NCBI GenBank assembly: GCA_003945285.1 | Contig: AP019005.1 | Coordinates: forward strand, 1,626,001-1,690,000 | Direction: 5' to 3' | DNA from: Hydrogenimonas sp. | GTDB taxonomy: Bacteria > Campylobacterota > Campylobacteria > Campylobacterales > Hydrogenimonadaceae | Length of the DNA stretch: 64,000 bases | In this document: positions 4,116-20,173 of the stretch, piece after piece | Layout: every line of letters starts with the position of its first letter | How positions within the stretch are numbered: the first letter of the stretch is position 1 | Notes under the pieces: generated by a model | The model's database searches: none | The model's input: only the letters and a program-made list of their open reading frames with translations | Told to the model about the DNA's origin: nothing | Position numbers and translations under genes: made by a program

Positions 4116-5771
<1,656 letters not shown>

Positions 5772-6041
5772 TTATTTCAAAATTCCAAGAATGTCATCAC
5801 TGCTGAGAATAAGCAGCTCTTTTCCGTCAACGGTTATATCCGTTCCACTATATTTTCCGAATACAACTTTGTCACCCACTTTGATGTGGCCCTCCTCTTC
5901 TACTTCCGGCCCTATAGCCAGAACTACGGCCTCCTGGGGTTTCTCCTTCGCGTTGTCGGGAATTATGATCCCGGATGCTGTCTGTTGCGGCTCGTCAACC
6001 CGTTCTACCAGAACTCTGTTGGCTAGTGGTTGGAAACTCAT
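5772..6041 (-). CDS. groES: Co-chaperonin GroES (10 kDa)
   Basis: Lid of the GroEL folding chamber. The 89-residue protein begins MSFQPLANRVLVERVDEP and has the mobile-loop segment TASGIIIPDNAKEKP. An in-frame upstream extension exists (to 6056), but the ATG at 6041 is preferred because AAAGGAGAG sits a few bases upstream of it and the family begins at this position. It is the first gene of the groESL operon. Confidence 0.97.
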   Translation of the reverse strand: MSFQPLANRVLVERVDEPQQTASGIIIPDNAKEKPQEAVVLAIGPEVEEEGHIKVGDKVVFGKYSGTDITVDGKELLILSSDDILGILK

Positions 6042-6065
6042 TGACTCTCCTTTCATTCTTGAGAT

Positions 6066-6092
6066 TTAGCAGTTACTTTTTATAAGTGCTGA
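6066..6092 (-). promoter_or_regulatory. Degenerate CIRCE operator (HrcA site)
   Basis: The consensus CIRCE is TTAGCACTC-N9-GAGTGCTAA. Here the plus strand reads TTAGCAGTT, exactly nine bases, then AAGTGCTGA. Seven of nine positions pair between the arms and the spacing is exact. It lies immediately downstream of the groES -10 box, where HrcA would block transcription start. hrcA is not in the window. Confidence 0.7.
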
Positions 6093-6093
6093 A

Positions 6094-6122
6094 ATTTTAT
6101 CCCAATTTTTTTCCATTGTCAA
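6094..6122 (-). promoter_or_regulatory. Sigma70 promoter of groESL
   Basis: On the minus strand, TTGACA (6122-6117), a 17-base spacer, then TAAAAT (6099-6094). It is a near-consensus promoter directly upstream of the CIRCE-like operator and groES. Confidence 0.82.
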
Positions 6123-6239
6123 GAGATATTGCAATTTTCTTAGTTTATTTATATCATATTATTGAGTCTTATTGGCTCATATTTCTGTTTTTGTTCCGAT
6201 TTTATCCGTACCATTTTTGTGCTACAATATTGGATCTGG

Positions 6240-6414
6240 ATGTTACGTAAGTAGAGAGTGTAAAAAAACCGCTTCACGGCTAAAAGATATACGTTTGAAG
6301 AGAGACGGGGCCGATGTTGCGCAAAAGAGTAGCCAAAACAGGATTTTCCTTCCGGGGCCTGGAAGTCGCGAATAGCATCGGTCAACGAAAAGTCTCCGGT
6401 TTTTTGCGTAACAG
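6240..6414. repeat. MITE-like intergenic repeat, family A
   Basis: About 175 bases between groES and the AsmA-like gene, bounded by ATGTTACGTAA on the left and TTTTTGCGTAACAG on the right. These are imperfect terminal inverted repeats of the type seen at 28163, 32221 and 55599. The interior is diverged. Confidence 0.45.
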
Positions 6415-6450
6415 CCTGACATCTATATTTCTCTGAAGGATAGCTGAACC

Positions 6451-7950
6451 ATGAAATATATTGTAGCTTTCGTTGCGGTTTTACTCCTTATTCTGGGGAT
6501 CGCTTACGGAGTACTTTTCACCGCTCCCGGAAACGGGGTGCTGAAACCGGTAATAGAGTCGAAAATCGCGCAGAATGTTCCTCTGCCTACAAAGCTGGAG
6601 AGATTTGTACTACGGCCGGACCGCTTCGATATCCTGCTCAAAATCGGAGACGGCACCGCTATAGAGGCGAAAGGTACAATGAACCTGTTTTCCCGGTATA
6701 TCGACGCTTTATACAGTGTGGATATAAAAGAGCTCTCCAGCCTCGAAAAGCTGCTGGGCACCAGACTCAACGGACCATTCAGAACGGAGGGTACCGTAAA
6801 GGGCGACGAAAGGCTTCTGAAGATAGTCGGCAAAAGCGATGTCGCCGCGAGTGAAACCGCCTACGGGATAGACCTGGAAAAGTTCGAGCCGGCCAACCTG
6901 ACCGCGAAAATTGCCCATCTGCAAATAGATAGACTTCTATATATGATAAACCTGCCGCAATACGCAAAAGGGAGAGTCGATATAGATGCGGAAATCTCAA
7001 ACCTGGATCTCGACAATCTCGACGGCTCCGTCGTTACACGGATCAGAGACGGGGTTGTAGTTCCACAGCCTGTGAAGAGGGATTTCAACCTTTCGATTCC
7101 CTCCGACCTTACATTCAAAGGTGACGTAGATACGAAACTGACGGAAAGCAGGGCGGTATCGAAAGTAGACTTCATCACTTCGGTGGCCACCCTCACGACC
7201 GAAGCGCTGACCTACGATATCAAAAAAGGTGCTCTCTCCACCGATTACAGAGCCGATGTCCCGGACCTCGACAGACTCTTTTTCTTAACCGGACAGCACA
7301 TGAAGGGTGGCATTGTCGTGACCGGCGACGTGACGACATCGAAAGAGAAGGTTCGAGCCACCGCACACTCAGATACACTCGGTGGAGCCGTTGATGCACT
7401 CTTTGAAAACGGCAAAGCAGCCGTGAAGATCAGGAACATTCAGACGGTGGCGTTGACCGACATGCTTATGTACCCCCACATATTCGACTCACGCGCCAAT
7501 ATGAAACTGGACTACGACACCGTAAAACAGCTCGGAACACTGCACGCTGAGCTGCTCAACGGCCAGATACTGCCGAACAGAATGAGTTTCATACTTCAAC
7601 AGATGGCTAACTTCGATATCACGAAAGAGGTGTACGAACGCACAACTATAGATACGAAAATAGTCAAAAAGAGGCTCATCTCCGACCTCTACATGAAAAG
7701 CCGCCTGACTGAAATAGTCTCCAAAAGAGGAGTCATAGACCTGGATAACGGCACAATAGATACTACGCTTGAAATCAAGATAAGAAAAGCGATGATACCC
7801 GTAACACTCAAAGGAGAGCTCACATCTCCGCAGATAAAAGTGGATGCGAAAGAGGTGCTGAGATCGAAAGCGAAAGAGGAGATAGAGAAGCGTCTGCCGA
7901 AAAACCTGAAAGAGAGCCCGGCCGGAGAGCTGCTGAAAGGACTCTTCTAG
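6451..7950 (+). CDS. AsmA-like inner-membrane-anchored periplasmic protein
   Basis: Protein of 499 residues with one N-terminal membrane helix (about residues 3-22), then a long, beta-rich periplasmic body and a charged C-terminal helix ending in KESPAGELLKGLF. Repeating short strands, and a late segment of the type 'rkamipvtlkGelTsPqikvd', resemble AsmA/TamB-like proteins involved in outer-membrane biogenesis or lipid transfer. No enzyme motif is visible. A weak GAAGGAT ribosome-binding site precedes the ATG. It stands alone on the plus strand. The family call rests on fold-like features, so the exact role is open. Confidence 0.55.
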   Translation: MKYIVAFVAVLLLILGIAYGVLFTAPGNGVLKPVIESKIAQNVPLPTKLERFVLRPDRFDILLKIGDGTAIEAKGTMNLFSRYIDALYSVDIKELSSLEKLLGTRLNGPFRTEGTVKGDERLLKIVGKSDVAASETAYGIDLEKFEPANLTAKIAHLQIDRLLYMINLPQYAKGRVDIDAEISNLDLDNLDGSVVTRIRDGVVVPQPVKRDFNLSIPSDLTFKGDVDTKLTESRAVSKVDFITSVATLTTEALTYDIKKGALSTDYRADVPDLDRLFFLTGQHMKGGIVVTGDVTTSKEKVRATAHSDTLGGAVDALFENGKAAVKIRNIQTVALTDMLMYPHIFDSRANMKLDYDTVKQLGTLHAELLNGQILPNRMSFILQQMANFDITKEVYERTTIDTKIVKKRLISDLYMKSRLTEIVSKRGVIDLDNGTIDTTLEIKIRKAMIPVTLKGELTSPQIKVDAKEVLRSKAKEEIEKRLPKNLKESPAGELLKGLF

Positions 7951-7975
7951 GCCCGGCTGCCTCCCGGCCCAACGG

Positions 7976-8131
7976 TACAGCCGGAATATACGCTTTTAGC
8001 ACCGCTGCCGCCTCCCGAATGGCAGATCGCATCTGCGTAGATGTTTTGCCTGCAGGCCCGGCTCTTTCTCTTTACACCCGGTTTCGAATGCAGGCCCAAA
8101 TCTCGAAATAGAATAGTTTGAGATTTGGGGC
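7976..8131. repeat. Composite intergenic repeat (family A core plus family B palindrome)
   Basis: Positions 8000-8090 resemble the right part of the repeat at 23430-23515 (cctcccgaa-ggcagatcgca, then tctttac-cccggttt). They are followed at 8096-8131 by CCCAAATCTC, 16 bases, then GAGATTTGGG, a perfect 10-bp inverted repeat. Part of this matches the right end of the element at 46954-47116. Confidence 0.6.
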
Positions 8132-8142
8132 AGGAAAAATTC

Positions 8143-8171
8143 TTGACAGAGCATCAGTTTTAGGCTAAAAT
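8143..8171 (+). promoter_or_regulatory. Sigma70 promoter of the tRNA-Met gene
   Basis: TTGACA at 8143-8148, a 17-base spacer, and TAAAAT at 8166-8171, about 22 bases before the tRNA. Both boxes are at or near consensus. Confidence 0.8.
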
Positions 8172-8192
8172 ACCGCTCCACAAAGAGAGGTT

Positions 8193-8269
8193 GGCTGGGT
8201 AGCTCAGCTGGTTAGAGCGCTGGTCTCATAAGCCGGAGGTCGGGAGTTCAAGTCTCCCCCCCGCCACCA
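8193..8269 (+). tRNA. tRNA-Met (anticodon CAT, probably elongator)
   Basis: A 77-nt cloverleaf with encoded CCA. The D arm is GCTC/GAGC, the anticodon loop CTCATAA gives CAT, the T arm is GGGAG-TTCAAGT-CTCCC, and the 3' end is CCACCA. Acceptor pairing GGCTGGG with CCCCGCC leaves one T4-C69 mismatch. The anticodon stem has two T-G pairs at 28-42 and 31-39. The body resembles elongator tRNA-Met of Campylobacterota; the alternative is tRNA-Ile2 read through lysidine, which shares the CTCATAA loop. It lies convergent to the V/A-ATPase operon. Confidence 0.85.
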
Positions 8270-8291
8270 AAACCTTTTCTACAACCTTCAA

Positions 8292-8903
8292 TCAGATTTT
8301 TTCACTCTCTTTCGTCAATATCTTGAGTATGGTCAGAAACTCCCTTTCACTCTCTTCAAGAGCCGATTCGATATCTTTTATCTCTTTTCTGTATCTTGGA
8401 AGGTAGTAGTTTTTAAGTGCGTTTACGCGGACAATACTCTTTTTCAGCTCTTTTGCGAGCCTCCAGACCTTTATCTCCACACTGGAGAGCTCAAGTATAA
8501 GTTTCACCGCATCCGTAAACGAGACTCTTGCCAGGTCCAGATAGATCGATTCGGCAGCATATCCGGAAGGGAGCGGGCGGCTCTTCGTCTTTACGGAGAC
8601 CTCCGGAACCACTATACCGATGAAGCTTTTACGCACAACATTCAGCTCGGCTTCGAACTCGACCAGCCTGCTCTCCTGTTCGACCCGCTCGCGGCCGCTC
8701 TCCATGAAGGCTTTGATGAGCAGCCTATAACTCTTCTCCACCGCTTCATCCGCCCTTTCGCGCAGATTCTGCACCTCGTCCAGCATAGACATGATCTCTT
8801 TGAGGATGATATTGCGCTTCTGTTCCAGTATCTCTTCACCGCCCGAAGCGGCTTCGAAGTCGGCTCTCAGTTCAAGAAGCGCCGTCTTGCTCTTCAGTGC
8901 CAT
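8292..8903 (-). CDS. V/A-type ATPase subunit D (central rotor shaft)
   Basis: The 203-residue protein is almost wholly alpha-helical, with N- and C-terminal coiled coils flanking a short middle segment, as in ATPase subunit D. It forms the central shaft that turns inside the A3B3 head and couples to the membrane rotor. The opening [20 protein letters not shown] and the C-terminal [20 protein letters not shown] match the family's conserved 'RvNALe...iP' region. It overlaps the end of subunit B by 32 bases and is the last gene of the operon. Confidence 0.9.
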
Positions 8904-10242
8904 CTATATACTCCGCTATATCTTCCGGCTTCAAACGGGTAAGCTCTGTATGCGGCAGAAGGCGAAGCAGTCTCCACCCGATCTCCAGCGTCTCCTCCAG
9001 GCTCCTCTTTTCATAGCTCCCCTGTGAAATGAAATCTTTTTCAAACGCCTTCGCGAACTCCAGGTAACTTTTGTCCGTTTCGGATATCTCCTCCTCACCC
9101 ACGATGGAAGCTAGCATCTGGGCCCTTTTGGCCTTGGCGTAGGCGGCATACAACTGGTTCGCCTCTCTCTGGTGCACCTTGGAGATACCCTTGTTCATCA
9201 GCCTCGATAGCGAAGGAAGCACGTTTATCGGCGGGTAGAGCCCGGCCTGGTGCAGCCCGCGGTCCAGAACTATCTGCCCTTCGGTGATATACCCGGTCAG
9301 ATCGGGTATCGGGTGCGTTATATCGTCGTCCGGCATCGTCAGAACCGGAATCTGGGTCAAAGAGCCCTCTTTTGTCTTGAGTATCCCGGCCCTTTCGTAT
9401 ATGGAGGCCAGGTCGCTGTACATATAGCCCGGATACCCCTTCCGTCCGGGAATCTCCTCTCTCTTCGCCGAAACCTCCCGCAGGGCGTCGCAGTAGTTCG
9501 CCATATCGTAAAGCACCGCCACGACATCGTACCCCTCTTCGAACGCCAGGTACTCCGCCAGTGTAAGTGCGCTTCTCGCGAGAAGCAGCGAATTTACACT
9601 CGGTTCGTCGGCCGTGTTGAGAAAGAGTGCAGTATTGGAGTGCTGCCCGCTCGCCATGATGTTCTTTAGAAAGTAGTCGGCGTTTTCATGCTTGATGCCG
9701 ATGGCGGCAAAGAGTACCGCGCTCCGCTCCCCGCCGCTCCCTATCTGCCTCACTATCTGTGCGACCAGTTCATCGGTCGAGACGCCGGAAAGTGCGAAAA
9801 TGGGAAGCTTCTGCCCCTTTACAAGAGTGTTGAGTCCGTCTATCGCGCTTATTCCGGTTCTTACCGCCTCTTTCGGGTGGAGCCTCCGGGCGGGATTGTA
9901 TGCCGAACCGGCTATATCGACCCTCTTTTCGGTGATCGGCGGCCCCATTCCGTCGACCGGTTCGCCGAATGCGTCGAAAGCCCGCCCCAGCATAGAGCTG
10001 CCGACGCCGATCCTGAAGGGTTCGCCGCTGAATTTGACCCTGAGATCCTCCACGCCCATACCATGGGTCTCACCCAGCATCTCTATGAGCGTCACCTTTT
10101 CACTTATGGCGGCGACCCTGCCGTATATCTCCCTCCCGCCGTACTTCACCGTCACCTTTTCGCCGTATCCCGCCTCTTCGACGGTTTCGAAAAAGAGAAT
10201 GTTTCCTTTGATGCTTTCGGCACCCCTGTACTCTATGAACAT
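8872..10242 (-). CDS. V/A-type ATPase subunit B (non-catalytic head subunit)
   Basis: Regulatory nucleotide-binding subunit of the A3B3 head, 456 residues from the ATG at 10242. Conserved B-subunit phrases are [11 protein letters not shown], the [20 protein letters not shown] region, and the [17 protein letters not shown] segment. There is no canonical Walker A, as expected for subunit B. The start was placed at MFIEYRG, one base after the subunit A stop; an in-frame upstream extension to 10299 would lie inside subunit A. It overlaps subunit D downstream. Confidence 0.95.
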
Positions 10243-10243
10243 C

Positions 10244-11983
10244 TCATGCCCCGCTGTACTCCCGGGCAAGCCTCTCGTAGCTCTCCACGATTCTCTCACG
10301 AAGCTCGTCGTACCTGTTCAGCTCACTGTTGGGTATCTCATATTTCGACCTTACAAACTCCGCTATGACAGGCTGCCGCTTCAGAACATCCACAGGTATC
10401 CGCTCCTCTTTGTGGCATCTGATCCATAGCTGCTGTATCGTCTTTATGATAGAGGCCATCTTCACGATTCTCTGCGGGGGAGAGTAGGCGTCGATATCGT
10501 CAAATGCGTTCTGCTGCAAAAAGACCTCCTTCACAAGCGACGCCGCCTCCACCGTCAGCTTCTGCTCTTCCGGCAGAGCCTCGCTTCCAAGCAGTTTTAC
10601 TATCTTCTGCAAAGAGGCGTCCTCCTGCAGAAGCGAGAGCATCCACTCTCTAAGAGCCGCCGCATCCTCTTCCCTCTGCATCCACCACTCTTTCAGCATC
10701 TCCGCATAGGCGCTGTAGCTTCTGGAGTAGTTGATCGCCGGGAAAAAGCGGGAACTCGCCAGTTCCCGGTCCAGCGCCCAGAAGGCGCTGGTGTAGCGCC
10801 TGGTGTTTCTTGTCACCGGCTCCGAGAGGTCACCTCCCGGCGGAGAGACCGCCCCTATTATCGTAACGGAGCCGTGCCCGCCGCCAAGCGTTTCGACCAT
10901 AGCCGCACGCTCGTATATGGCCGCTATACTGGAAGCGAGATATGCCGGAAAGCCCTCCTCCGCCGGAAGCTCGTTGAGCCTTCCCGATATCTCCCTCATC
11001 GCCTCGGCCCACCTGGAGGTGGAGTCGGCCATAAGCGCCACATGGTAACCCATATCGCGGTAATATTCGGCTATTGTCAAACCGAGAAGAATGGAAGCTC
11101 CGCGGGCGGAGACAGGCATGTCGGAAGTGTTGGCTATGAGCACCGTCCGCTCTATCAACTTTTTTCCGCTTCTGGGATCGCTCAGCTGAGGGAACTCTTC
11201 CAGCACTTCCGTCATCTCGTTTCCCCTCTCGCCGCACCCTACATATACGATGACGTCGGCATCACTCCACTTCGCCAGCGTCTGCTGCAAAATCGTCTTT
11301 CCGGTACCGAAGCCGCCGGGAATGGAGGCCGCTCCCCCTTTGGCTATAGGGAATAGAAAATCTATGATCCTCTGTCCGGTAAGAAGCGGCTCTTTGACGC
11401 TTTCACGCCCAATGAAGCCTCTGGGGGTTCTCAGCGGCATCTTCTGCACCATGCTCATGGAGAATCCGCCTCTGAGCCGCAGAATCTCCTCTTTTACCGT
11501 ATACTCCCCCTCGGGGGCGATATACTCCACCTCCCCTTCGACATCCGCGGGAAGCATCAGGCGGTGAAGAAGGCCGAACTCCTCCACCTCGCCGACGAAC
11601 TCGCCGGGGCCGACCATCCGGCCTCTCAAGACCAGCGGACGGAAACGGTAGGCTCTCCCGGTGTCCAACGCGTAAACGGTGCTCCCTTTTTCTATCTTAT
11701 CCCCGATCTTATCCAGCGGTCTCTGGATACCGTCGAAAACACTCCCCAAAAGCCCGGGGCCGAGATGGGCGCAGAACATCTCTCCGCTGAATCTGACCGG
11801 CTCTTTGAGTTTCATCCCCTCACTGTTTTCGTAGACCTGCAGCACGGCCTCGTTTTGCGAAACTTCGACGACTTCAGCCACCAAAGACGCCTCTCCCGCA
11901 AAGGCGAGCTCGTAGAGCTTCACACTCTCTCCCTCGAGGGCTGCTTTCAGTACAGGGCCGGAAATATAGGAGATATAGGCCAT
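10244..11983 (-). CDS. V/A-type ATPase catalytic subunit A
   Basis: Catalytic ATP-hydrolysing or -synthesising subunit, 579 residues, the normal length. The N-terminal beta-barrel is followed by the 'non-homologous' bulge segment and the P-loop GGFGTGKT at residues 223-230. Next come the GERGNEM motif and the segment [19 protein letters not shown]. The P-loop differs slightly from the common GPFGSGKT or GAFGSGKT. It starts immediately after subunit E in a tightly packed operon. Such a V/A ATPase is not the standard F-type enzyme of Campylobacterota. Confidence 0.97.
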
Positions 11984-12523
11984 CTAAACCCCGATCCGTT
12001 TCGCCAACTCTTCATCTATCAGTTCGCCGTACTCCTCCATCAGAGAGCGCGGGTCAAACTCCATTATCAGGTTATCTTTTGAGAAAACTATACTCTTTCG
12101 GCCGGTTTTGACCACCTTGAAAGAGTCCAGGCCTTCGGTATCGAGCTTCTCATATATCTGAAGCTCTCCCTCCCCGAACCTCTTTTTCAGCCACTCCAGA
12201 AAAATCTCAGCCGACTCCCCGAACCTCTCTTCGAGCTCTCTTTCGACACCCTCCAGTACGCCGGACTTCAGCCCGGAGAGAAAGTGCTGCCGCTCTCTCT
12301 CAGTTTCGCTTTCGATCTTCGCTCTTCGCTCCTCCTCGAAAGAGCGAAGCTCCTTTCCCAAAATCTCCTCGGATTCAGCTAAGATTTCGGCGGCCTCCTT
12401 CTCCGCCTCATGCACCTTTTCTTCGGCACGCGCCTTCGCCTCTTCCACTATCTTTTCCGCACGGTTCAGCGCGGAAGCGGTTATCTTTTTGGAAAAGTTT
12501 TCAAAGTCTGATTCCGAGTACAC
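11984..12523 (-). CDS. V/A-type ATPase subunit E (peripheral stalk)
   Basis: Peripheral-stalk (stator) subunit, 179 residues. Residues 10-90 are a long charged coiled coil rich in Ala, Glu, Lys and Arg. The C-terminal half is globular and would bind the head. Position between F and A, size and heptad pattern identify it rather than short motifs. Its start overlaps the end of subunit F by 23 bases. Confidence 0.82.
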   Translation of the reverse strand: MYSESDFENFSKKITASALNRAEKIVEEAKARAEEKVHEAEKEAAEILAESEEILGKELRSFEEERRAKIESETERERQHFLSGLKSGVLEGVERELEERFGESAEIFLEWLKKRFGEGELQIYEKLDTEGLDSFKVVKTGRKSIVFSKDNLIMEFDPRSLMEEYGELIDEELAKRIGV

Positions 12524-12803
12524 CTGAGAGATAACCTTTTATATCCGTTTTTATATGCCTTCCGTCCATGGAGGGGACGAAAACTACGGCCGGGACCGCC
12601 CTCTTTTGCATCTTGGCCGAAAACCTTTCGGAGTATCTGCCGAAAAAGCGGTCGGCGGCTATTATCACACCCGCATCCTCCCTCTCCAGAAGCTCCTCCA
12701 TCTTCTCCGTAAACTCCTTCTCACTCCCTACGGCGAATGTCTGCGCCCCGGCCAGAGCAAAGCCGAGGCACTCATCTTCGTTCCCGAGAAAAAAGAGTCT
12801 CAA
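12501..12803 (-). CDS. V/A-type ATPase subunit F (central shaft cap)
   Basis: A 100-residue protein of the Rossmann-like subunit F fold. It opens MRLFFLGNEDECLGFALAGA, matching the family's 'iaviGd.dtvlGFrLaGv' pattern, and later has DAGVIIAADRFF and a PAVVFVPSMDG loop. Subunit F binds D in the central shaft and modulates ATPase activity. It overlaps subunit K upstream by four bases and E downstream. Confidence 0.88.
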   Translation of the reverse strand: MRLFFLGNEDECLGFALAGAQTFAVGSEKEFTEKMEELLEREDAGVIIAADRFFGRYSERFSAKMQKRAVPAVVFVPSMDGRHIKTDIKGYLSGVLGIRL

Positions 12804-13081
12804 TCGATCTTTCCCAGAATCATTATGGAGACTATAAGGCCGTAGATGGCGATGCCTTCGGCCAACCCGAGAAAGATGAGCGCCCTGCCGGAGATTTCCG
12901 GTTTTTCACCCATCGTGCCCATGGCGGCCGCACCGACCAGCCCCACCGCGATACCGGCGGCTATACAGGCGAGCCCCACCGAAAGGGCGGCGGCTATATA
13001 GGCCCAGGCCTCGGAATCTCCCTCGGCCCACAAAAGAGCGGGAAACATAAGCAGAAGCGGTAGAAGGGATCTCTTTTTCAT
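12800..13081 (-). CDS. V/A-type ATPase membrane rotor subunit K (c-ring)
   Basis: A 93-residue protein: a cleavable-looking signal (residues 1-19, LLWA then EGD), followed by two membrane helices. The second carries the ion-binding Glu75 in LAEGIAIYG. It is a single hairpin, as in Thermus, not the doubled four-helix form of Enterococcus NtpK. I see no Gln in helix 1 and no Ser/Thr next to Glu75, the features usual in Na+-binding rings, so proton coupling is inferred. Confidence 0.92.
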   Translation of the reverse strand: MKKRSLLPLLLMFPALLWAEGDSEAWAYIAAALSVGLACIAAGIAVGLVGAAAMGTMGEKPEISGRALIFLGLAEGIAIYGLIVSIMILGKID

Positions 13082-14895
13082 AGTTCACTCTCCAGCACGA
13101 AAGGCTTGTAGGGCTTGCCGCCCCCTTTGAAAAAACGCTTGAAAAATTCGTAGTATTCGAGTCTCAGCGTCTGTATGGTCACTACGACGCCCTCAAGAAC
13201 TATTATAAAGCAATTTCCTAAAACGATGATAAACCAGTACCCGACTCCGCGGCTGTCGGCTTTCGAGAGGATGTCGGCGATGGAGAATAGGGCCAGGAAG
13301 AGGGCTCCGTGCGCGAGAGCGAATGCTCCCAACCGCGCGAAAGATATGGTGTTTACGGCCTGCTCGAACATCTGGATGAGAGCATCGAGCATGGTCTGTG
13401 CATACTCTCTCCTCTTTATCAGAAGCAGAACTATCAAAAGAGCGACCATCGCACCCAGAAAATAGAGCTCGTATCTGACCGGAAGCTCGAATATCAGCGC
13501 TTTTGCCGCGATGCCTATGGCAAACCAGTAGACCAATAGCCAGAGTACTCCCCCTTCACCCAGAAAGAGGGCCGATATCTCTCCCCTTCGGCCCAAAGAG
13601 ACGATATTGAGCAAAAATCCGACTGTAATGAAAAAGATTCCGATAGCTATGCCGGTGAAGATGCTCAAATCGACGTTTTCGACGGGGACGAAGAGCAGTG
13701 GCGGCACTAAGTCGTGAAATCCGAAAAAAGAGCCGTAGAGGAGTCCGAAGAGCGCCGACCCGGCCCCTGCAAGCATATAGACCTTCCCGAGATCTTCATA
13801 TTTTCCGAATTTTTTCGAGACGAAAAAGCCTGCGGCTATGAGAACCAGGCCATGCCCGATATCGCCGAACATGGCGCCGAACATGACCATAAATGCAAGC
13901 GCAAACGGCACTGTCGGATTTATCTCGTTGTAGCCCGGGTAGGAGAAGCTCTTTATGAGGCTCTCGAAGGGTTTCAATATTTTCGGTGTCTTCAGCAGCA
14001 CGGGCGCATCGTCGCCGGCCCGGGAGAAGCTGACATCGGCATACCCGAGCGCTTCAGCGAAACTCTTCGCCTGCCGCCTGGGCACCCAGCCGTAAAGAAA
14101 ATAGTGGTCCCCCGCCTTCTGCAGAGCACTCCTGACCGCAAAGATCCCAATAGCTCTTTTGAGTTCAAGGTATATATCCTGCAGCCTCTTCGCGTAACGT
14201 TCCGAAACCTTTTTGAACTCACTCTCCAGTTCGCTTCGCATTGCCTCTATCTCGGCCCGTTTGCCCTGAAGCAGATACTCTTTTTCTATCTCGTCGGCTT
14301 CCGTTTTCGATATCGCATTCAATATATGCGCCTCGTCAGGAGGGTCGTAAAAAAGAAGCATGGCGACACTCCCCGATGTGAGAGGCGCATATACCGCAAA
14401 AGGGTCGTAACGCTTGAGTGCCAGCATGAACATCTCTACACTGTCATGCGCCAGAACGACGGCCCTCACTCCTGCATACTCCACCCTCCGTACTATCTCT
14501 TTAGTATCTATATCGCTCTTCAGGGCATCCACGAAGAGCTCGGCACGCTCCAGCCGGTTCTCTTCGCTCTTGAGCCTCTTTCGCCTGTTGGCTAGAGACT
14601 CTATAGAAGGTGCGGCGGAAGAGACGAGTCTCTCCGCCTCCGTCAAAAAGAGTTCATAATCCTCTACACCCTCTTTCGCTCCCCTTTCAGGAACCTTGAC
14701 ACCGAGTATCTCCAGATACCCCTCCACCCTCTCCAGAAGCTTCCCCGCACGCTCCTGAAGCTCGTGAAAAAGGGGCTTCTCACCGCTTCTGTCTATATGA
14801 AGAACTCCGCACTTCCCTATCTCTTCTATGGTCCGGTAGAGATGCGCCGCAGGTATCGAAATCTCCACCCTGACCATTCTTTCGGGAAAGAGCAC
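13078..14895 (-). CDS. V/A-type ATPase subunit I (membrane stator, a-subunit homologue)
   Basis: Large membrane stator subunit of 605 residues. The first half is a soluble, coiled-coil arm. The second half has about seven to eight membrane helices, including the conserved GAMFGDIGHGL segment and the SFARLGAFALAHGALF helix, whose Arg is expected to face the c-ring Glu. Length and layout match family PF01496. It overlaps subunit K by four bases and sits two bases after subunit C, so translation is probably coupled. Confidence 0.93.
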   Translation of the reverse strand: MLFPERMVRVEISIPAAHLYRTIEEIGKCGVLHIDRSGEKPLFHELQERAGKLLERVEGYLEILGVKVPERGAKEGVEDYELFLTEAERLVSSAAPSIESLANRRKRLKSEENRLERAELFVDALKSDIDTKEIVRRVEYAGVRAVVLAHDSVEMFMLALKRYDPFAVYAPLTSGSVAMLLFYDPPDEAHILNAISKTEADEIEKEYLLQGKRAEIEAMRSELESEFKKVSERYAKRLQDIYLELKRAIGIFAVRSALQKAGDHYFLYGWVPRRQAKSFAEALGYADVSFSRAGDDAPVLLKTPKILKPFESLIKSFSYPGYNEINPTVPFALAFMVMFGAMFGDIGHGLVLIAAGFFVSKKFGKYEDLGKVYMLAGAGSALFGLLYGSFFGFHDLVPPLLFVPVENVDLSIFTGIAIGIFFITVGFLLNIVSLGRRGEISALFLGEGGVLWLLVYWFAIGIAAKALIFELPVRYELYFLGAMVALLIVLLLIKRREYAQTMLDALIQMFEQAVNTISFARLGAFALAHGALFLALFSIADILSKADSRGVGYWFIIVLGNCFIIVLEGVVVTIQTLRLEYYEFFKRFFKGGGKPYKPFVLESEL

Positions 14896-14897
14896 GG

Positions 14898-15749
14898 CTA
14901 GACTCCCCCTATCATCTTCTCTATCTCCTCACGCGGAAGCCTGTAGTGGACCCCCTCTATCAGAGACCTTATATCTCTTATCTCCATCTCTTTCATTCTC
15001 AGAAGCGAAAAGATTATCGAGAGCTTGAAAGGGTAGCCGTACCAGACTCCGCGAAGAGTCTTCATATGATATTGGGCAAGTGCCTGCCTGAACTCATGAT
15101 AGCCCGAAAAGGGGCGGCCCACTTTTTCATGAACCAGATCCGATATCTCACCGATCGTCGACATACCCGCCGCCTCGGCAAGAGCGGCCATATCGAAAGA
15201 GAGGCCGTAAGGGGCCAGAAACGGTACAATCTCCTCCGGCTCGAGCCCGTAGAGAATCCTCAGCCGGACCACCGTGTAGAGGTTCAGTATGTCGAAGTAG
15301 CTTCCCAAAATCTTGGAAAGATCGCGTCTGGGCCCACGCTCCATCCCGTAGAGGGTCCGCTCTATCTTCTCTATATACTCGAGGTCCGCCGCTCTATACT
15401 CACTCCTGCTTCCTCCGGCTCTGCCGAGCTCCAGCTTCCGCTTCGCCAGGCGCTCACGCTCGAAGAAGAAGAGGTCGAATATCTCCCTCTCCCTTTTCCC
15501 GAGCATCGATGTACTCTTTTTGTATAGCTCTTCAAAGGAGGCTTCAAGCCCCCTCTCCATGCTCTCCTTTTCGGCATCCGGAATATATTCGGCATAGCGG
15601 CTCCGCTTCAAAAGAGCGTAGATGTCGCCCAGCCCCTCCGCCTGAAGCGCCTTTTCGTAAAATCCTCTGTCGAGCAGGTCGGATTTCAGAGTTCTGCATT
15701 TTGCGTTGATATATCCATATTTCACCGGTTTGAGCATCAACATTCCCAT
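14898..15749 (-). CDS. V/A-type ATPase subunit C (rotor connector, d homologue)
   Basis: Subunit that joins the central shaft to the c-ring, about 284 residues and all alpha-helical. The N-terminal KYGYINAKCRTLKSDLL segment fits the family's 'YgYanarvrames.LL' start. A TTG at 15755 overlapping the preceding stop is an alternative start; the ATG at 15749 has AGAAGGGA about 11 bases upstream and is preferred. Gene position directly before subunit I supports the call. Confidence 0.85.
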   Translation of the reverse strand: MGMLMLKPVKYGYINAKCRTLKSDLLDRGFYEKALQAEGLGDIYALLKRSRYAEYIPDAEKESMERGLEASFEELYKKSTSMLGKREREIFDLFFFERERLAKRKLELGRAGGSRSEYRAADLEYIEKIERTLYGMERGPRRDLSKILGSYFDILNLYTVVRLRILYGLEPEEIVPFLAPYGLSFDMAALAEAAGMSTIGEISDLVHEKVGRPFSGYHEFRQALAQYHMKTLRGVWYGYPFKLSIIFSLLRMKEMEIRDIRSLIEGVHYRLPREEIEKMIGGV

Positions 15750-15751
15750 CT

Positions 15752-16099
15752 TCAAAGATCCCTTCTCATCTCCGAAGAGAACCGCCGCAAAATCGCATCC
15801 GCAATCTCTTTTGCAGCCTTTTTGTCTGAGAAACCGGAGGCCATGCGCCTCTTCCAGGCTTCAAGCTCTTCCAGCTTTTTACGCTCCAAAAGTTCGAGCG
15901 ACCTCTGCAGCTTCGAAAACTCTTCGTGCCTCTTTCGTGCCGCATCTCTTTGGGCTCCTGACACGATCTCTTCACTGCGGCGCTCCGCACGTGAGACAAT
16001 CTCGGCCGCTTCACTCTCGGCACTCGAGACTATCTGTGCTGCTCTCCTGTCGACTTCGATAACCCTGTGTGTAAGATCCGCCATATTTGCCCTTTTCAT
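15752..16099 (-). CDS. V/A-type ATPase subunit G/H (peripheral stalk)
   Basis: A 115-residue charged coiled-coil protein, the usual partner of subunit E in the peripheral stalk. Residues 15-90 show uninterrupted heptads rich in Ala, Glu, Arg and Lys. It is the first gene of the ATPase operon, 28 bases after the nucleotidyltransferase stop. No short motif is diagnostic; the call rests on size, composition and position. An internal ATG (MADLTHRV) is a possible alternative start. Confidence 0.8.
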   Translation of the reverse strand: MKRANMADLTHRVIEVDRRAAQIVSSAESEAAEIVSRAERRSEEIVSGAQRDAARKRHEEFSKLQRSLELLERKKLEELEAWKRRMASGFSDKKAAKEIADAILRRFSSEMRRDL

Positions 16100-16127: not shown

Positions 16128-17213
16128 TCAAAAAAGGTGTTTTCGTATATGGTAGATGATGTATCGCAAGAGGGCGAGCGGGTACTCCCTCTTCGATCTG
16201 AGACCGTAGAAGCTCTTCAGTGCCTCGTATGAGTAGATATCCCCCCTCTCCGTATATGCCCTGTAGAGTTTGAAGATTTTCGTATCCTCCTCCAGTGTAG
16301 ATTGCCATAGCGACTTTTTCAGGTGGAGCCATCCTCCAAGGCGATTAAACCCGATAGGAGTCTTCAACCCGAAGAGAGCCCCGGCGCCGTATAGAAAATC
16401 TTCCAGAATCTTCTCATGCCCGTACCTTCGGGCAAGCTCGTAGAGTTCACTCCACTCTACTCTATCTTCATAGGCTTCGGCAATCATCACGAAGTCGTAG
16501 AGATATCGCAGCCCCAGCCTCCATCTGTCGTGGTTCCGGTCTATAACCGCGCTGTGCAGAAAAGCGTGGTAGAGATGCCATGTAGGCTTGAGAACACGTG
16601 AATCGGCGAAAAGGGGATTTGAGCTCTGCATCGAACTCGTTTCACTGTACGGTATATACTCGATCTCCGGGTCGAAAACTATCCGAAAGTGCGGCTCCAA
16701 CGCTGCAGGATACCCCTCTTTGGCCATTCTCCTCGTATGATGGTGCCAGCGTCCGAGCTCTCTTCCGAACTCTGCATAGCCGCTCTCCCTGAGCAGAAGA
16801 AGCGCTCTTTTGAAAAATCTCTCTTCGATCATGATATCGATATCGTTCATAAGACGCATTCCGATATCCGGGTAGAGCCCTTCGCTCAGAACCGCGGCCC
16901 CCTTCAGAAAAAGGGGGACTATCCCCTCTTTTCGGAGTGTGCTCTGAATATCCTGAAGCTGAAGAACGATATTTTCGTTTCGCTTTCTGTTCAGTTCGTA
17001 TATCTCCCGCAGAAAGCCTTTGAGCATATCGTCGTTCAACAGCTTAAGCAGCCCTCCCTCTCTCAAAACCGCAAAGAGTGCCGGAGTCAGCAGCTCGGTA
17101 TTCGCCACTTCAACAAGATACTCCCACTCCACAAGCCCGTTTTCTATGAGGCGGGCGCTCTCTTCCAGCCTGCCGCCGCGTTGGGCTGATGAGAGCATTT
17201 TACACAGCTGCAC
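16128..17213 (-). CDS. Nucleotidyltransferase family protein (PF14907-like) of a RiPP-like cassette
   Basis: Predicted nucleotidyl-transferring enzyme of the pol-beta-like fold. The segment LFLKGAAVLSEGLYPDIGMRLMNDIDIMI carries the expected KG and D-x-D metal-binding pair; numbered from an ATG at 17279 these are about residues 126 and 146-148. The rest is alpha-helical. That ATG lies 53 bases inside the kinase gene. The GTG at 17213, with AAAAGAGAT upstream, is preferred here. Family members are known from peptide-modification loci (including some lasso-peptide clusters) and beside HprK-related kinases. Here it directly follows such a kinase. The substrate is unknown; the peptide encoded upstream is the obvious candidate. 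Confidence 0.72.
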   Translation of the reverse strand: MQLCKMLSSAQRGGRLEESARLIENGLVEWEYLVEVANTELLTPALFAVLREGGLLKLLNDDMLKGFLREIYELNRKRNENIVLQLQDIQSTLRKEGIVPLFLKGAAVLSEGLYPDIGMRLMNDIDIMIEERFFKRALLLLRESGYAEFGRELGRWHHHTRRMAKEGYPAALEPHFRIVFDPEIEYIPYSETSSMQSSNPLFADSRVLKPTWHLYHAFLHSAVIDRNHDRWRLGLRYLYDFVMIAEAYEDRVEWSELYELARRYGHEKILEDFLYGAGALFGLKTPIGFNRLGGWLHLKKSLWQSTLEEDTKIFKLYRAYTERGDIYSYEALKSFYGLRSKREYPLALLRYIIYHIRKHLF

Positions 17214-17226
17214 TATCTCTTTTCGT

Positions 17227-18357
17227 CTATCGGCCAACCAACCGCTCCAGACTCTCCACCCCCTCTTCGAGCGATCCATACTCCATCGAGTATGCCGGCA
17301 CCGACAGAATCGTGGAGAGAATCTCTTCGAAGCTACTGACGGTAAGAGGAGAACCGAGCTGGTACCCGGCCTCCTTTATAAGCTTAAGTGTCTCACATGC
17401 GCCGAGGCTCCTGACGCGGCTCTCACCCCCCTCTATATATCGCGGGAAGACCAGCACCGATACCTCTCCTCTCCTCTTGGAAAGGTTTCTCGGCGGCAGT
17501 GACTTCACCCTCCGGCCGTCAAACCGCATATAGGTCCGGGCATCTTTTAAAGATGGATACCTATCACTCAGAACTTCCCAACTCCCCTCTTTGATATTGA
17601 TGCCGAAAGGTATTGCAGAGACTCCGCCGTCACTATCTACAAGAGCTATCTCATCGGAAAAGAGAGAGTGGCCTTTGGAGAGAAGAGCGGCTGTAAGAGT
17701 ACTTTTGCCTGAGCCGCTCGAACCGGGGAGAAGCAGGGTGGCAGACCCCACTCCTACAGCTCCCGCATGTATCGCCATGAGGTAGGGTTCGCACTGGTAG
17801 TAGAGTATGATCATATTCTCCTGCAGAATCAGAGGTATCGTATCTCCCCGCGCCGCAGTAGCTACAGGGGTTGAATTGAAAAGGAGCCTCCAGCCGGACC
17901 CGACCGCTTCGAAGTCCACATTGACCCTCTTTTTACCCCCCGCTTCACCGCGCATATGCGCAAAAAGAGGATCAATCTTCTCTTCCAACTCCCCGTTGGG
18001 ATAGGCTATATGAAAAATCACCCTTCCGGTATCGTAGCAGAATCTCTCTCTATCCTCTTCTATGAACTCGCCCAGACTCAACGGAGCTTCATACTCTTCA
18101 TGCCCCTCTTCGAACCGTCCGAATCTGAGATCTATCAATCTTTTGATATCTGAAGGAGAAATTTTGGGGAGTAGTGTCGGTATAGAGTTCTCCTCATGCT
18201 TTTCGAGAAGCTCATCTATCTGTAGGAACAGTGCGGCCTGCTCCCTCTCGAGCCCGTATACACGGCCGCTTCTTTCAAAAAAGAGAAGCAGAGACTCCCC
18301 GTCGATATAGGCGAGGGCGGAGTCGGCATAGAGAGGGCACTTTTGAAACTTTTCCAA
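17227..18357 (-). CDS. HPr-kinase-like enzyme with N-terminal PqqD-like segment
   Basis: Protein of 376 residues. The C-terminal half resembles the HPr kinase/phosphorylase P-loop fold: AIHAGAV (His197), P-loop PGSSGSGKST at 211-220, and an acidic SDEIALVD at 234-241. It is too divergent and in the wrong context to be genuine HprK. Residues 15-60 (ESLLLFFERSGRVYGLEREQ onward) look like a PqqD/RRE peptide-binding domain. The start is a TTG 24 bases after the small peptide gene; no good ATG was found upstream. I infer a peptide kinase that recognises the leader of the adjacent peptide. NCBI families of 'HprK-related kinase A' with PqqD partners are the nearest known concept, cited from memory. 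Confidence 0.7.
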   Translation of the reverse strand: MEKFQKCPLYADSALAYIDGESLLLFFERSGRVYGLEREQAALFLQIDELLEKHEENSIPTLLPKISPSDIKRLIDLRFGRFEEGHEEYEAPLSLGEFIEEDRERFCYDTGRVIFHIAYPNGELEEKIDPLFAHMRGEAGGKKRVNVDFEAVGSGWRLLFNSTPVATAARGDTIPLILQENMIILYYQCEPYLMAIHAGAVGVGSATLLLPGSSGSGKSTLTAALLSKGHSLFSDEIALVDSDGGVSAIPFGINIKEGSWEVLSDRYPSLKDARTYMRFDGRRVKSLPPRNLSKRRGEVSVLVFPRYIEGGESRVRSLGACETLKLIKEAGYQLGSPLTVSSFEEILSTILSVPAYSMEYGSLEEGVESLERLVGR

Positions 18358-18381
18358 AAAAGTTATGCTGTCTTCATCTTC

Positions 18382-18579
18382 TTACGGTCCTTGATGCCCA
18401 TGATGCCCATGATGTCCATGGTGCCCACAGGAGCCCGACGCCTGGGCTTTGGAGGAGCCTGGTCCCATCAGAAGATACATTCCAAGAGGTGCGGAAGCGG
18501 CAAATTTACCGTATTTGATCATAAACTCCCGTTTCGCCTCATCCACACTCACTTCTTTCTGTTTTATATCTCTTTTCAC
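18382..18579 (-). CDS. Putative ribosomally made, modified peptide precursor with Gly-His-His tail
   Basis: A 65-residue peptide from a GTG start with AAAGGA seven bases upstream. Residues 1-25 are charged (leader-like). Residues 25-42 are hydrophobic (YGKFAASAPLGMYLLMGPG). Then follow SSKAQASGS and a 15-residue C-terminal tail CGHHGHHGHHGHQGP with one Cys and seven His. The tail could be a modified core or a metal-binding tag, and AQA could be a cleavage site. It lies directly upstream of the kinase and nucleotidyltransferase genes on the same strand. No known precursor family was recognised; coding status is supported by the SD site and the clear leader/tail layout. Confidence 0.65.
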   Translation of the reverse strand: MKRDIKQKEVSVDEAKREFMIKYGKFAASAPLGMYLLMGPGSSKAQASGSCGHHGHHGHHGHQGP

Positions 18580-18678
18580 GGTATATCCTTTCTCTCCATT
18601 CCAACTATTAGAACATATTTGACTTTATACATATCTTAACTTGTACAAATGGAAAAAATGCAATAGGCGCAGATATCT

Positions 18679-19941
18679 TCAGTATCTGATAAAATCGCCC
18701 ATTGCCACATATGTGCCGGGCAGCTTAATCGATTTAGATACCCACAGATAATCGAGATCGATCGAATAGAATTTAGCCTCACAGTTCGCACAGCTGTAGA
18801 AGTAGCGTCCGCTCTCGTCGATATAGCTCGTATGCGCCTGGGCATTCTTGCCGGCTGCCCACTCTTCGGAAGTGAGGGGTTTCGCCACTTCGATGTTGCC
18901 CACAACCTTCGGGCTCTGCGGGTTCGAGAGATCGACAACCGTTACATATGTAGCTTTATGGTTGGTTACGACAGCCAGCCTTTTGGGGATGGAGAAGGTT
19001 ATGTGCCCGGCACCCAGACCCGCCCGGAAAGCGGCGACTGAACTCATACTGTTTTTGTCAACCACATAGACCTTTCCGCTGTAGGTAGGCATGAAGATAT
19101 ACTTGTCACCGTAGAACGCGGCATGATGGACCCCTCCGTCTTCGTGGGCAGCATGGAAGACCGTATCGACCGTTATCGCGTTCGAAGAGTCTATCGTGAA
19201 TTTCATGATGCCGGCGGCCGGTATGGAGCCATTTTCAGCATCATTGGGCCCTTCAAGAGTCATATAGTATGTTCCGTTGCCTGAGGAGTCGACTTCGGAA
19301 GAGAGGGTCAGAACATGGTGTGCCGTTGTCTCCGTATCGATCTGCGCAAGCGGTGTCTCGCTATCTTTGCTGTAGAGAATAAGTTTTCTGTTTACTCTAT
19401 CGAGCATCAGAAAGCGTCTGCCGTCGGCAAGCCAGAAGGGGTGACCGGTAGCGTTGCCTCCCCCGAAATAGTTTGACGAGTCTACCGGGTGAACCGAGGT
19501 ATCGACATCTTCACCGAAGTACCTTTTTACCTCATGATCCGTTTTACCTATGGTGGCAGACATCGGTTTTGTTTTGCCTGACACCAGCACAAGATCCAGG
19601 TTGTCTAGGGTAGCGGTAGACCTGGGGTGAAATTTCAGCGGGATCACCTTGACAACCCTGTTCTCTCTGAAGTTTATCACCGCTATGGAGTCTCCCCTGC
19701 GCGTAAGAGCGAAAGCTTCCGTATCGGTTTCACAATCGACCCCGTAGGGCCCCAGGGCAGGGGAGACATTCATTACAGCATCGAGACTCATTCTGTCGAC
19801 ATCTATGTTGAAGACTTTGGTCGACTCATAGTCACCGTAAAGGGCATGTGTACTCGGCTCTACACCGTTGCCGTCGCTGTCACATCCGCTAAGGCCGAAG
19901 AGGGCGGCGGTTACAACAGCAGCCAGGAGTGGCTTTCTCAT
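18679..19941 (-). CDS. Beta-propeller lipoprotein upstream of the RiPP-like genes
   Basis: Secreted lipoprotein of about 420 residues. The start chosen is the ATG at 19941 (MRKPLLAA), with AAAGGATG upstream. A lipobox LSGC follows at residues 18-21. The body has repeated strand blocks such as DSIAVINFRENRVVKV, KLILYSKDSETPLAQI, KVYVVDKNSMSSV and YVTVVDLSNPQSPKV, as in seven-bladed YVTN/LVIVD-type propellers. A late CANC pair could bind metal. It precedes the His-tailed peptide gene by about 100 bases on the same strand, so it may act on or receive that peptide outside the cytoplasm. That link is inferred. Confidence 0.7.
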   Translation of the reverse strand: MRKPLLAAVVTAALFGLSGCDSDGNGVEPSTHALYGDYESTKVFNIDVDRMSLDAVMNVSPALGPYGVDCETDTEAFALTRRGDSIAVINFRENRVVKVIPLKFHPRSTATLDNLDLVLVSGKTKPMSATIGKTDHEVKRYFGEDVDTSVHPVDSSNYFGGGNATGHPFWLADGRRFLMLDRVNRKLILYSKDSETPLAQIDTETTAHHVLTLSSEVDSSGNGTYYMTLEGPNDAENGSIPAAGIMKFTIDSSNAITVDTVFHAAHEDGGVHHAAFYGDKYIFMPTYSGKVYVVDKNSMSSVAAFRAGLGAGHITFSIPKRLAVVTNHKATYVTVVDLSNPQSPKVVGNIEVAKPLTSEEWAAGKNAQAHTSYIDESGRYFYSCANCEAKFYSIDLDYLWVSKSIKLPGTYVAMGDFIRY

Positions 19942-20173
19942 TGTACATCCTTTCACAGGTCATGATCCTCGTCCGAAAAACAGTGACACCGGTTATATGT
20001 TTGATTATATCGTCAAATATATTAAAATATAAATATGTATACACAACTGTTAACTTTCGTTAACTAATCTCGCGGCAGGAGCTAGGGACATCGGCGGTTT
20101 ATTGGTAGTTTGCGGTGCCCCGCTGGGAGAGTCCGCCCGTTAGGAGGATTCTATGCGGCGTGAAGAGACCGAC
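19942..20173. other. Intergenic region between proB and the propeller lipoprotein gene
   Basis: Contains a minus-strand TATAAT at 20009-20004 that may serve the lipoprotein gene, with only a weak -35. A repeated GTTAAC-TTTC-GTTAAC lies near 20048-20063. No gene was seen. Confidence 0.4.

Follow-up and report, generated by a model that had tools for sequence, protein, structure and literature searches.

A small gene with a Tat-like leader beside an HprK-type kinase in Hydrogenimonas, a candidate precursor of a phosphorylated, exported peptide

We analysed a stretch of 64,000 nucleotides from Hydrogenimonas sp. (contig AP019005.1), hereafter the window. On its minus strand, a strand that the initial annotation did not give, a 65-residue frame with a GTG start lies at 18382–18579 (MKRDIKQKEVSVDEAKREFMIKYGKFAASAPLGMYLLMGPGSSKAQASGSCGHHGHHGHHGHQGP). 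Conservation in relatives, the codon pattern and a leader profile suggest that it encodes a small exported precursor peptide. A Shine-Dalgarno-like AAAGGA (18586–18591, minus strand) is separated from the GTG by six bases. In the nearest relatives an ATG or GTG occupies a roughly equivalent position, and an AAAGGA-type site is found 5′ of most of them. The stop codon is followed after 24 bases by the start of a 376-residue protein (17227–18357, minus strand), in which a predicted RRE-like domain is fused to an HprK/PEPCK-type kinase. Farther along are a nucleotidyltransferase (16128–17279, minus strand) and a V/A-type ATPase operon (8292–16099), while a beta-propeller-like lipoprotein (18679–19956, minus strand) is encoded upstream of the small gene.

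The 65-residue frame is a genuine gene. Across 39 leader codons, the differences from relative G005 at codon positions 1, 2 and 3 number 4, 1 and 23, and those from relative G001 number 3, 3 and 23, which indicates purifying selection on this frame. The plus-strand ORF at 18343–18639 is its antisense shadow. When a family leader profile that had been built with the window leader included was run over the 664 window ORFs of at least 25 residues, this gene was the single match. No fitting family for the peptide was present in Pfam or NCBIfam. The suspicion of a missed small gene is borne out, and none of the matches to the small frame contains an internal stop.

A search of 60 related genomes returned matches to the peptide in 12, of which 11 are among the 18 same-genus genomes (best E per genome 5e-41 to 1.8e-4). 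We dropped the twelfth (G029, E 0.009), which sits in an 851-residue frame at a locus without a leader-type small gene. The gene also occurs in two further MAGs, labelled Helicobacteraceae (L046) and Epsilonproteobacteria (L047). Tandem copies are present in G013 (two) and G016 (three), and G003 has an additional leader gene on a separate contig, away from its cluster.

Residues 1–47 (DEAKREFMIKYGKFAASAPLGMYLLMGPGSSKAQAS; 18439–18579, minus strand) form the putative leader, which would combine a Tat-like signal peptide with an RRE recognition sequence and would be cut after AQA. In the 17 family members, leader residues D, K/R, R, F, M, K, G and K are invariant or nearly so, and the leader ends in an A-x-A-type site. 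The leaders of G002, G003, G007, G012 and G013 are 70–83% identical to the window leader, and the kinases of the same genomes are 40–47% identical to the window kinase. Of the two parts of the family peptide, the leader is conserved and the tail varies. The conserved leader, hydrophobic middle and AQA site raised in the initial annotation are also supported. The members are small proteins with an export-type front end in common, very different tails and, in most cases, an adjacent kinase.

The Tat-like motif of the window leader is K-R-E-F-M (18520–18534, minus strand), with Lys in place of the first Arg. This Lys is found in 16 of 17 family members and Arg in one. The window peptide is not matched by the Tat-signal model TIGR01409. 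A KR pair can function in a Tat signal, as it does in TtrB. The RR pair is present in the one family member, in the class I relatives described below and in the alphaproteobacterial relatives. An NCBIfam scan of 20 relatives left 19 without a match above the curated cut-off, L060 passing TIGR01409 (19.5 bits; cut-off 16.7), and a Pfam scan of ten relatives gave no matches. The peptides of L053, L054, L141 and L062 resemble TIGR04117 (Cys-Xaa-Xaa-Xaa repeat radical SAM target protein) weakly and below threshold, hinting at a leader style in common with another peptide-modification system.

The core or tail, residues 48–65 (SGSCGHHGHHGHHGHQGP; 18385–18438, minus strand), is hypervariable among relatives. 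With core starts placed by our own pattern, the tails of the 17 members are 8–122 residues long and of unrelated types: GHH repeats, RPGRPGRP, KPRKPRKPRK, HRHRRKSRRN, an 8-residue tail, and domains or folded-domain-like stretches of 90–120 residues. The cores do not align as one family. GH-rich tails occur in the window species, G005 and G001, and a longer His-rich tail in G003. The initial annotation had foreseen repeat copy-number variation between strains; the GHH/GHG count does differ among the first three of these, a comparison that applies to species only.

If the peptide is cut after AQA, Ser48 (core position 1) and Ser50 (core position 3) are the only hydroxyl residues of the window core, and the C-terminus is Pro. 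Core position 1 is Ser in 13 of the 17 members, and position +3 is Ser or Thr in 12. Cys is found within the first eight core residues in 14 members, and at least 7 His in four. A GNNGxGNGxDxxPGNS-like motif is shared by the tails of four peptides from two phyla (L140, 1624–1848; L137, 4554–4865; L062, 7072–7371; L081, 7188–7643), and may be a second conserved element.

Of the 18 genus genomes, the 11 with a leader all encode the kinase, and the other seven do not. The proposed link to the kinase is upheld, and no kinase-bearing genome of the genus lacks the small frame (11 of 11). The kinase has a P-loop, GSSGSGKST (17698–17724, minus strand), which most homologues retain together with an [SD]D[DE] motif that comes after it. 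Over its C-terminal half the kinase scores 93.7 bits against TIGR04352, for which the curated cut-off is 200. In the structural model (mean pLDDT 91.9), residues 86–376 match PEPCK (Z 15.6, rmsd 4.4, 268 aligned), and HprK (HPr kinase) structures come next by E-value. In G021, an HprK-type kinase (L083, 8265–9143) lies in a ribosomal-protein gene region with no leader peptide close by.

Because the VIA list for the whole kinase spans only residues 86–376, the N-terminal 91 residues were modelled separately (mean pLDDT 87.6). The model predicts an RRE/PqqD-like winged-helix domain at about residues 1–85 (18103–18357, minus strand). Lasso B1 RREs make up all six of the best PDB matches in Foldseek (E 0.015 to 0.15, best prob 0.98; nothing at E <= 0.001), and VIA ranks 1–6 are RRE-bearing RiPP proteins at modest Z values of 5.6–6.4 (rmsd 3.1–6.2, 69–76 aligned). 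At the sequence level the resemblance is weak: hhalign against two PqqD sets gives 9% and 13%, and the window kinase has no match to Pfam PqqD. The fused alphaproteobacterial homologues L139, L141 and L064 do pass that model (33.3, 34.4 and 36.9 bits; cut-off 23.4).

The nucleotidyltransferase belongs to NTP_transf_5 (PF14907; 128.9 bits, cut-off 31.2) and has a D-x-D motif. It occurs in 10 of the 11 same-genus clusters, and in the eleventh (G013) the contig ends inside the cluster. In G016 it is on the opposite strand, and the peptides are about 3–5 kb upstream of the kinase.

The propeller lipoprotein was rejected as an obligate part and is probably not essential. It is adjacent in 8 of 11 genus clusters and absent from those of G003, G006 and G016; in G003 the cluster contig ends nearby, and there are no matches elsewhere in the genome. 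It also occurs without the cluster in G014, where the propeller gene (L134, 1642–2643) is followed by apparent transposase genes. A second copy in G001 (L135, C147, 5079–6350) has as its neighbour a gene that in other genomes borders the cluster, which may reflect a strain mixture in this MAG. The V/A-type ATPase operon is also beside the cluster in G005 and G001, and in G002 and G007 the cluster abuts other genes.

TatC is encoded in all 18 genus genomes. The cluster (1.642–1.645 Mb in the genome) contains neither an S26 signal peptidase nor an ABC transporter: the genome's two S26 genes are both elsewhere, the nearest at 1.278 Mb, and the nearest ABC_membrane match is at 1.056 Mb. Asn_synthase matches are all distant (0.100, 0.388, 0.408 and 2.106 Mb), and no separate PqqD was seen beside the cluster. 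MNIO (PF05114) has no match in the whole genome, and the same search was positive in 2 of 14 control genomes.

In the phylum at large, a kinase profile run over 397 genomes identified 11 places in nine genomes. A small KR/RR Tat-type ORF is beside the kinase in nine of these places, the window's own and that of G007 included; the two without one are L058 and L055, the latter being the second of two kinases at the G256 locus. The phylum leaders outside the genus are of the RR type with a YVAPTVIALG-like signal core, which we call class I. This second class of leader has, inside the Tat signal, the motif [YW]xxPx[LVI]xxxG of lasso peptides and of linear polyphosphorylated peptides (LPPs). The looser pattern [YW]xxPx[LVIFA] is found in all nine class I peptides, including the second peptide of L081 and that of L064, versus 0 of 50 control Tat signals. 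The kinase-linked leader L061 belongs to class II and does not have this pattern. The window leader does not have the exact [YW]xxP spacing either; the nearest stretches are FAASAP or YAATAP, and in the window's FAASAPLG the distance from aromatic residue to Pro is five positions. In locus L077 of G256 (5558–12565), two HprK-type kinases, a cyclase of the Asn-synthase type, an ABC transporter and a PqqD accompany a Tat-type peptide with YAAPALVTLG. The locus also has a lasso-like precursor ORF (11682–11813, plus strand) with a canonical lasso-type leader, YAQPKLIVMG, such that both leader styles occur in one locus.

In Alphaproteobacteria we sampled ten kinase loci on plasmids, from 20 hit records of which the remainder were mostly near-duplicate species. 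Applied blindly to the 990 ORFs of these loci, the Hydrogenimonas leader profile selected exactly eight, one near the kinase in eight of the ten loci. In 30 Tat control loci it had no matches. All eight alphaproteobacterial leaders score 17.1–28.6 bits, and 50 ordinary Tat signals at most 10.1. Of these controls, 30 were the leading entries of a single list and for the most part resemble one another, and 20 were chosen for varied frame lengths; we take the 30 to be mostly NapA-type. By profile comparison, the Hydrogenimonas and alphaproteobacterial kinase-linked leaders are homologous (hhalign, 96.1%, E 3.4e-9). Given that the profile finds leaders in alphaproteobacterial kinase loci and nothing in Tat controls, the leader appears to be a kinase-linked recognition signal across two phyla, rather than any Tat signal.

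Among the alphaproteobacterial loci, L064 encodes a leader of class I upstream of the kinase, and L063 has a kinase and no leader ORF. The idea that leader class follows RRE type holds only in part: the kinase of L064 is fused although its leader is of class I, and the class II leaders of L139 and L141 go with a PqqD domain that Pfam detects.

Leaders also occur as orphans. On pSymB of Sinorhizobium meliloti 1021, a class II leader gene (L142, 5974–6282; tail GNNGWGNGPDPTNPGSS) has no kinase within 6 kb. Full-length matches show that this orphan is kept in no fewer than 25 plasmid records of Sinorhizobium. These 25 do not overlap with the 29 kinase-bearing ones, a comparison that covers plasmid records only, and a kinase encoded elsewhere might act in trans. 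In the S. meliloti records CP021802 and CP090106, no more than about 2.5 kb separates the leader from a kinase.

With moderate confidence, we interpret the gene as the precursor of a secreted, probably phosphorylated RiPP-type peptide, whose leader would double as an address for the RRE and as a Tat-type signal peptide. The neighbouring kinase probably recognizes the leader and phosphorylates the peptide before export. In the proposed scheme, the RRE-like N-terminal domain of the kinase would bind the leader near K-R-x-F-M-x-K-[FY]-G-K-[FY]-A-A-x-A-P, and the kinase would then phosphorylate Ser48, Ser50 or both. These sites are predicted because HprK-type kinases phosphorylate Ser of RiPP precursors and the window core has hydroxyls only at positions 1 and 3. 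The phosphate might then be decorated by the NTP_transf_5 enzyme, with either a sugar or a nucleotidyl group. The Tat system would export the peptide, and a housekeeping signal peptidase would cut after AQA. Since recognition would reside in the leader, the tail would be free to vary. The kinase could also act as a gate by masking the signal until modification, which would suit a Tat-leader peptide; for Sec-type bufferins, a similar gate has been speculated in the available part of PMC12452194. The suggestion in the initial annotation of a modified core is favoured by the two partner enzymes. Counted against the scheme are the members that lack core Ser1 (4 of 17) or Ser/Thr at +3 (5 of 17), the orphan leaders and the leaderless locus L063. 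The same holds for the departure of the window leader from [YW]xxP spacing, the Lys that stands for the first Tat Arg, and the weak sequence-level and modest Foldseek matches of the kinase N-terminus.

The peptides might instead be plain Tat-exported small proteins, with the kinase and nucleotidyltransferase acting elsewhere, for example on surface glycans, and sharing only an operon and its regulation. Orphan leader genes exist, the leader resembles a signal peptide, and several relatives are in polysaccharide loci, as judged by gene neighbours. However, the leader is conserved beyond a generic signal, and with its profile the kinase-linked leaders of both phyla can be told apart from the 50 Tat controls. 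Moreover, one of the two leader classes has the RRE motif of lasso and LPP leaders, and the predicted RRE fold of the kinase is a peptide-binding domain. We consider plain export rather unlikely. Anti-phage defence was also considered and rejected, as PADLOC gave nothing of note, only a weak HerA match (E 0.0064).

It is improbable, in our estimation, that the product is a periplasmic peptide that binds Ni, Cu or Zn, or that it is a RiPP that resembles bufferins in binding copper and having a signal peptide. The window tail, C-GHHGHHGHHGH, invites this idea, as do the four His-rich cores and the frequent early-core Cys, and bufferins have Sec signal peptides for leaders as well as RRE-type partners (PMC12452194, in the part available). 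Most relatives that share this leader and kinase, however, have tails that are not His-rich, and the absence of MNIO speaks against a bufferin. Metal binding, which the initial annotation had raised, is therefore not supported as a common function, and the small gene is not primarily a metal-binding oddity. A set of polymorphic secreted toxins or bacteriocins with a common trafficking leader, the cluster being their modification machinery, would account for hypervariable tails, one to three copies per genome and a patchy distribution. We recognized no immunity gene pattern and the tails are of low complexity, which together with the PADLOC result makes toxins very improbable. Regardless, toxins would be compatible with modification, and so overlap with the phosphorylated, exported precursor that we favour.

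For such a precursor, the final role might be an association with surface polysaccharide, or chemistry at the cell surface that involves other bacteria or metals. More tentatively, the peptides might represent a so far undescribed RiPP class of Gram-negatives, spanning Campylobacterota and Alphaproteobacteria at the least, where a Tat signal has assumed the role of the leader recognized by the RRE. In this class, the RRE-kinase would (poly)phosphorylate the Ser region at the new N-terminus, and the nucleotidyltransferase would link a sugar or surface polysaccharide. Masking by the kinase would allow only modified peptide to reach Tat, and housekeeping export and signal peptidase would replace the transporter and leader peptidase of LPPs. 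If true, the RiPP cassette of Bacillota and of lasso peptides runs in Gram-negatives with a Tat signal as leader, which would answer how such peptides are exported without a pump or leader peptidase of their own. The leader profile detects such peptides directly, and phosphate on Ser48/Ser50 is a precise prediction. The role of peptides near polysaccharide genes, a question that stands for LPPs too, would become testable because relatives occur in workable rhizobia such as Rhizobium tropici CIAT 899.

Our literature search, which covered open PubMed Central, found no description of a Tat-leader HprK system. Several known systems share parts of it. The HPr-rel-A system (kinase TIGR04352, PqqD TIGR04353) is similar in that the window kinase matches TIGR04352, albeit below its cut-off, but none of that system's precursor families was found in NCBIfam scans of these peptides. 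Bufferins and oxazolins, as described in the available part of PMC12452194, likewise are small exported peptides with a signal peptide instead of a leader and an RRE-type partner. By contrast with these MNIO RiPPs, the window system has a kinase and no MNIO, and its signal is Tat-like rather than Sec-like.

The phosphorylated or phosphoglycosylated lasso peptides paeninodin and pseudomycoidin resemble the window system in combining an HprK-type kinase, a nucleotidyltransferase and an RRE, which in the window is predicted, and class I leaders share [YW]xxPx[LVI]xxxG with them. According to the accessible text of PMC8498205, an HprK-type kinase phosphorylates the C-terminal Ser of paeninodin, and a nucleotidyltransferase extends the phosphate of pseudomycoidin by one or two hexoses. 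The window cluster, however, has no lasso cyclase or B2 peptidase nearby, and its peptide ends in Pro. Lasso peptides were rejected for want of Asn_synthase near the cluster.

The closest likeness is to LPPs, which were published in Nat Commun in May 2026 and are, by their authors' statement in the portion available, restricted to Bacillota (PMC13381572). That portion reports that the kinase phosphorylates core Ser3, that a Ser-to-Thr change is not accepted, that unmodified precursor is poorly cut, and that [YW]xxPx[LVI] is how lasso and LPP leaders bind the RRE. Both systems have an HprK-like kinase beside the precursor, an RRE, which in the window is predicted, and an NTP transferase in the cluster. 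LPP clusters have one to three precursors of 35–200 residues with a conserved N-terminus and a highly variable C-terminus, and they are often in polysaccharide loci, as are L046, L053, L054, L056 and L057 here. If the window peptide is cut after AQA, Ser is at core position 3, the position that the LPP kinase targets. Unlike the discrete RRE of LPPs, the RRE-like fold of the window is fused to the kinase, and the window cluster has no SipW-like peptidase or MsbA-like transporter. The window leader is also Tat-like, without an exact YxxP, and the phyla are different. By analogy, the window system is best read as a Gram-negative, signal-peptide-led counterpart of LPPs, with the putative chemistry and export route proposed above. 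It would work like LPPs, yet falls outside the definitions of LPPs, lasso peptides and bufferins.
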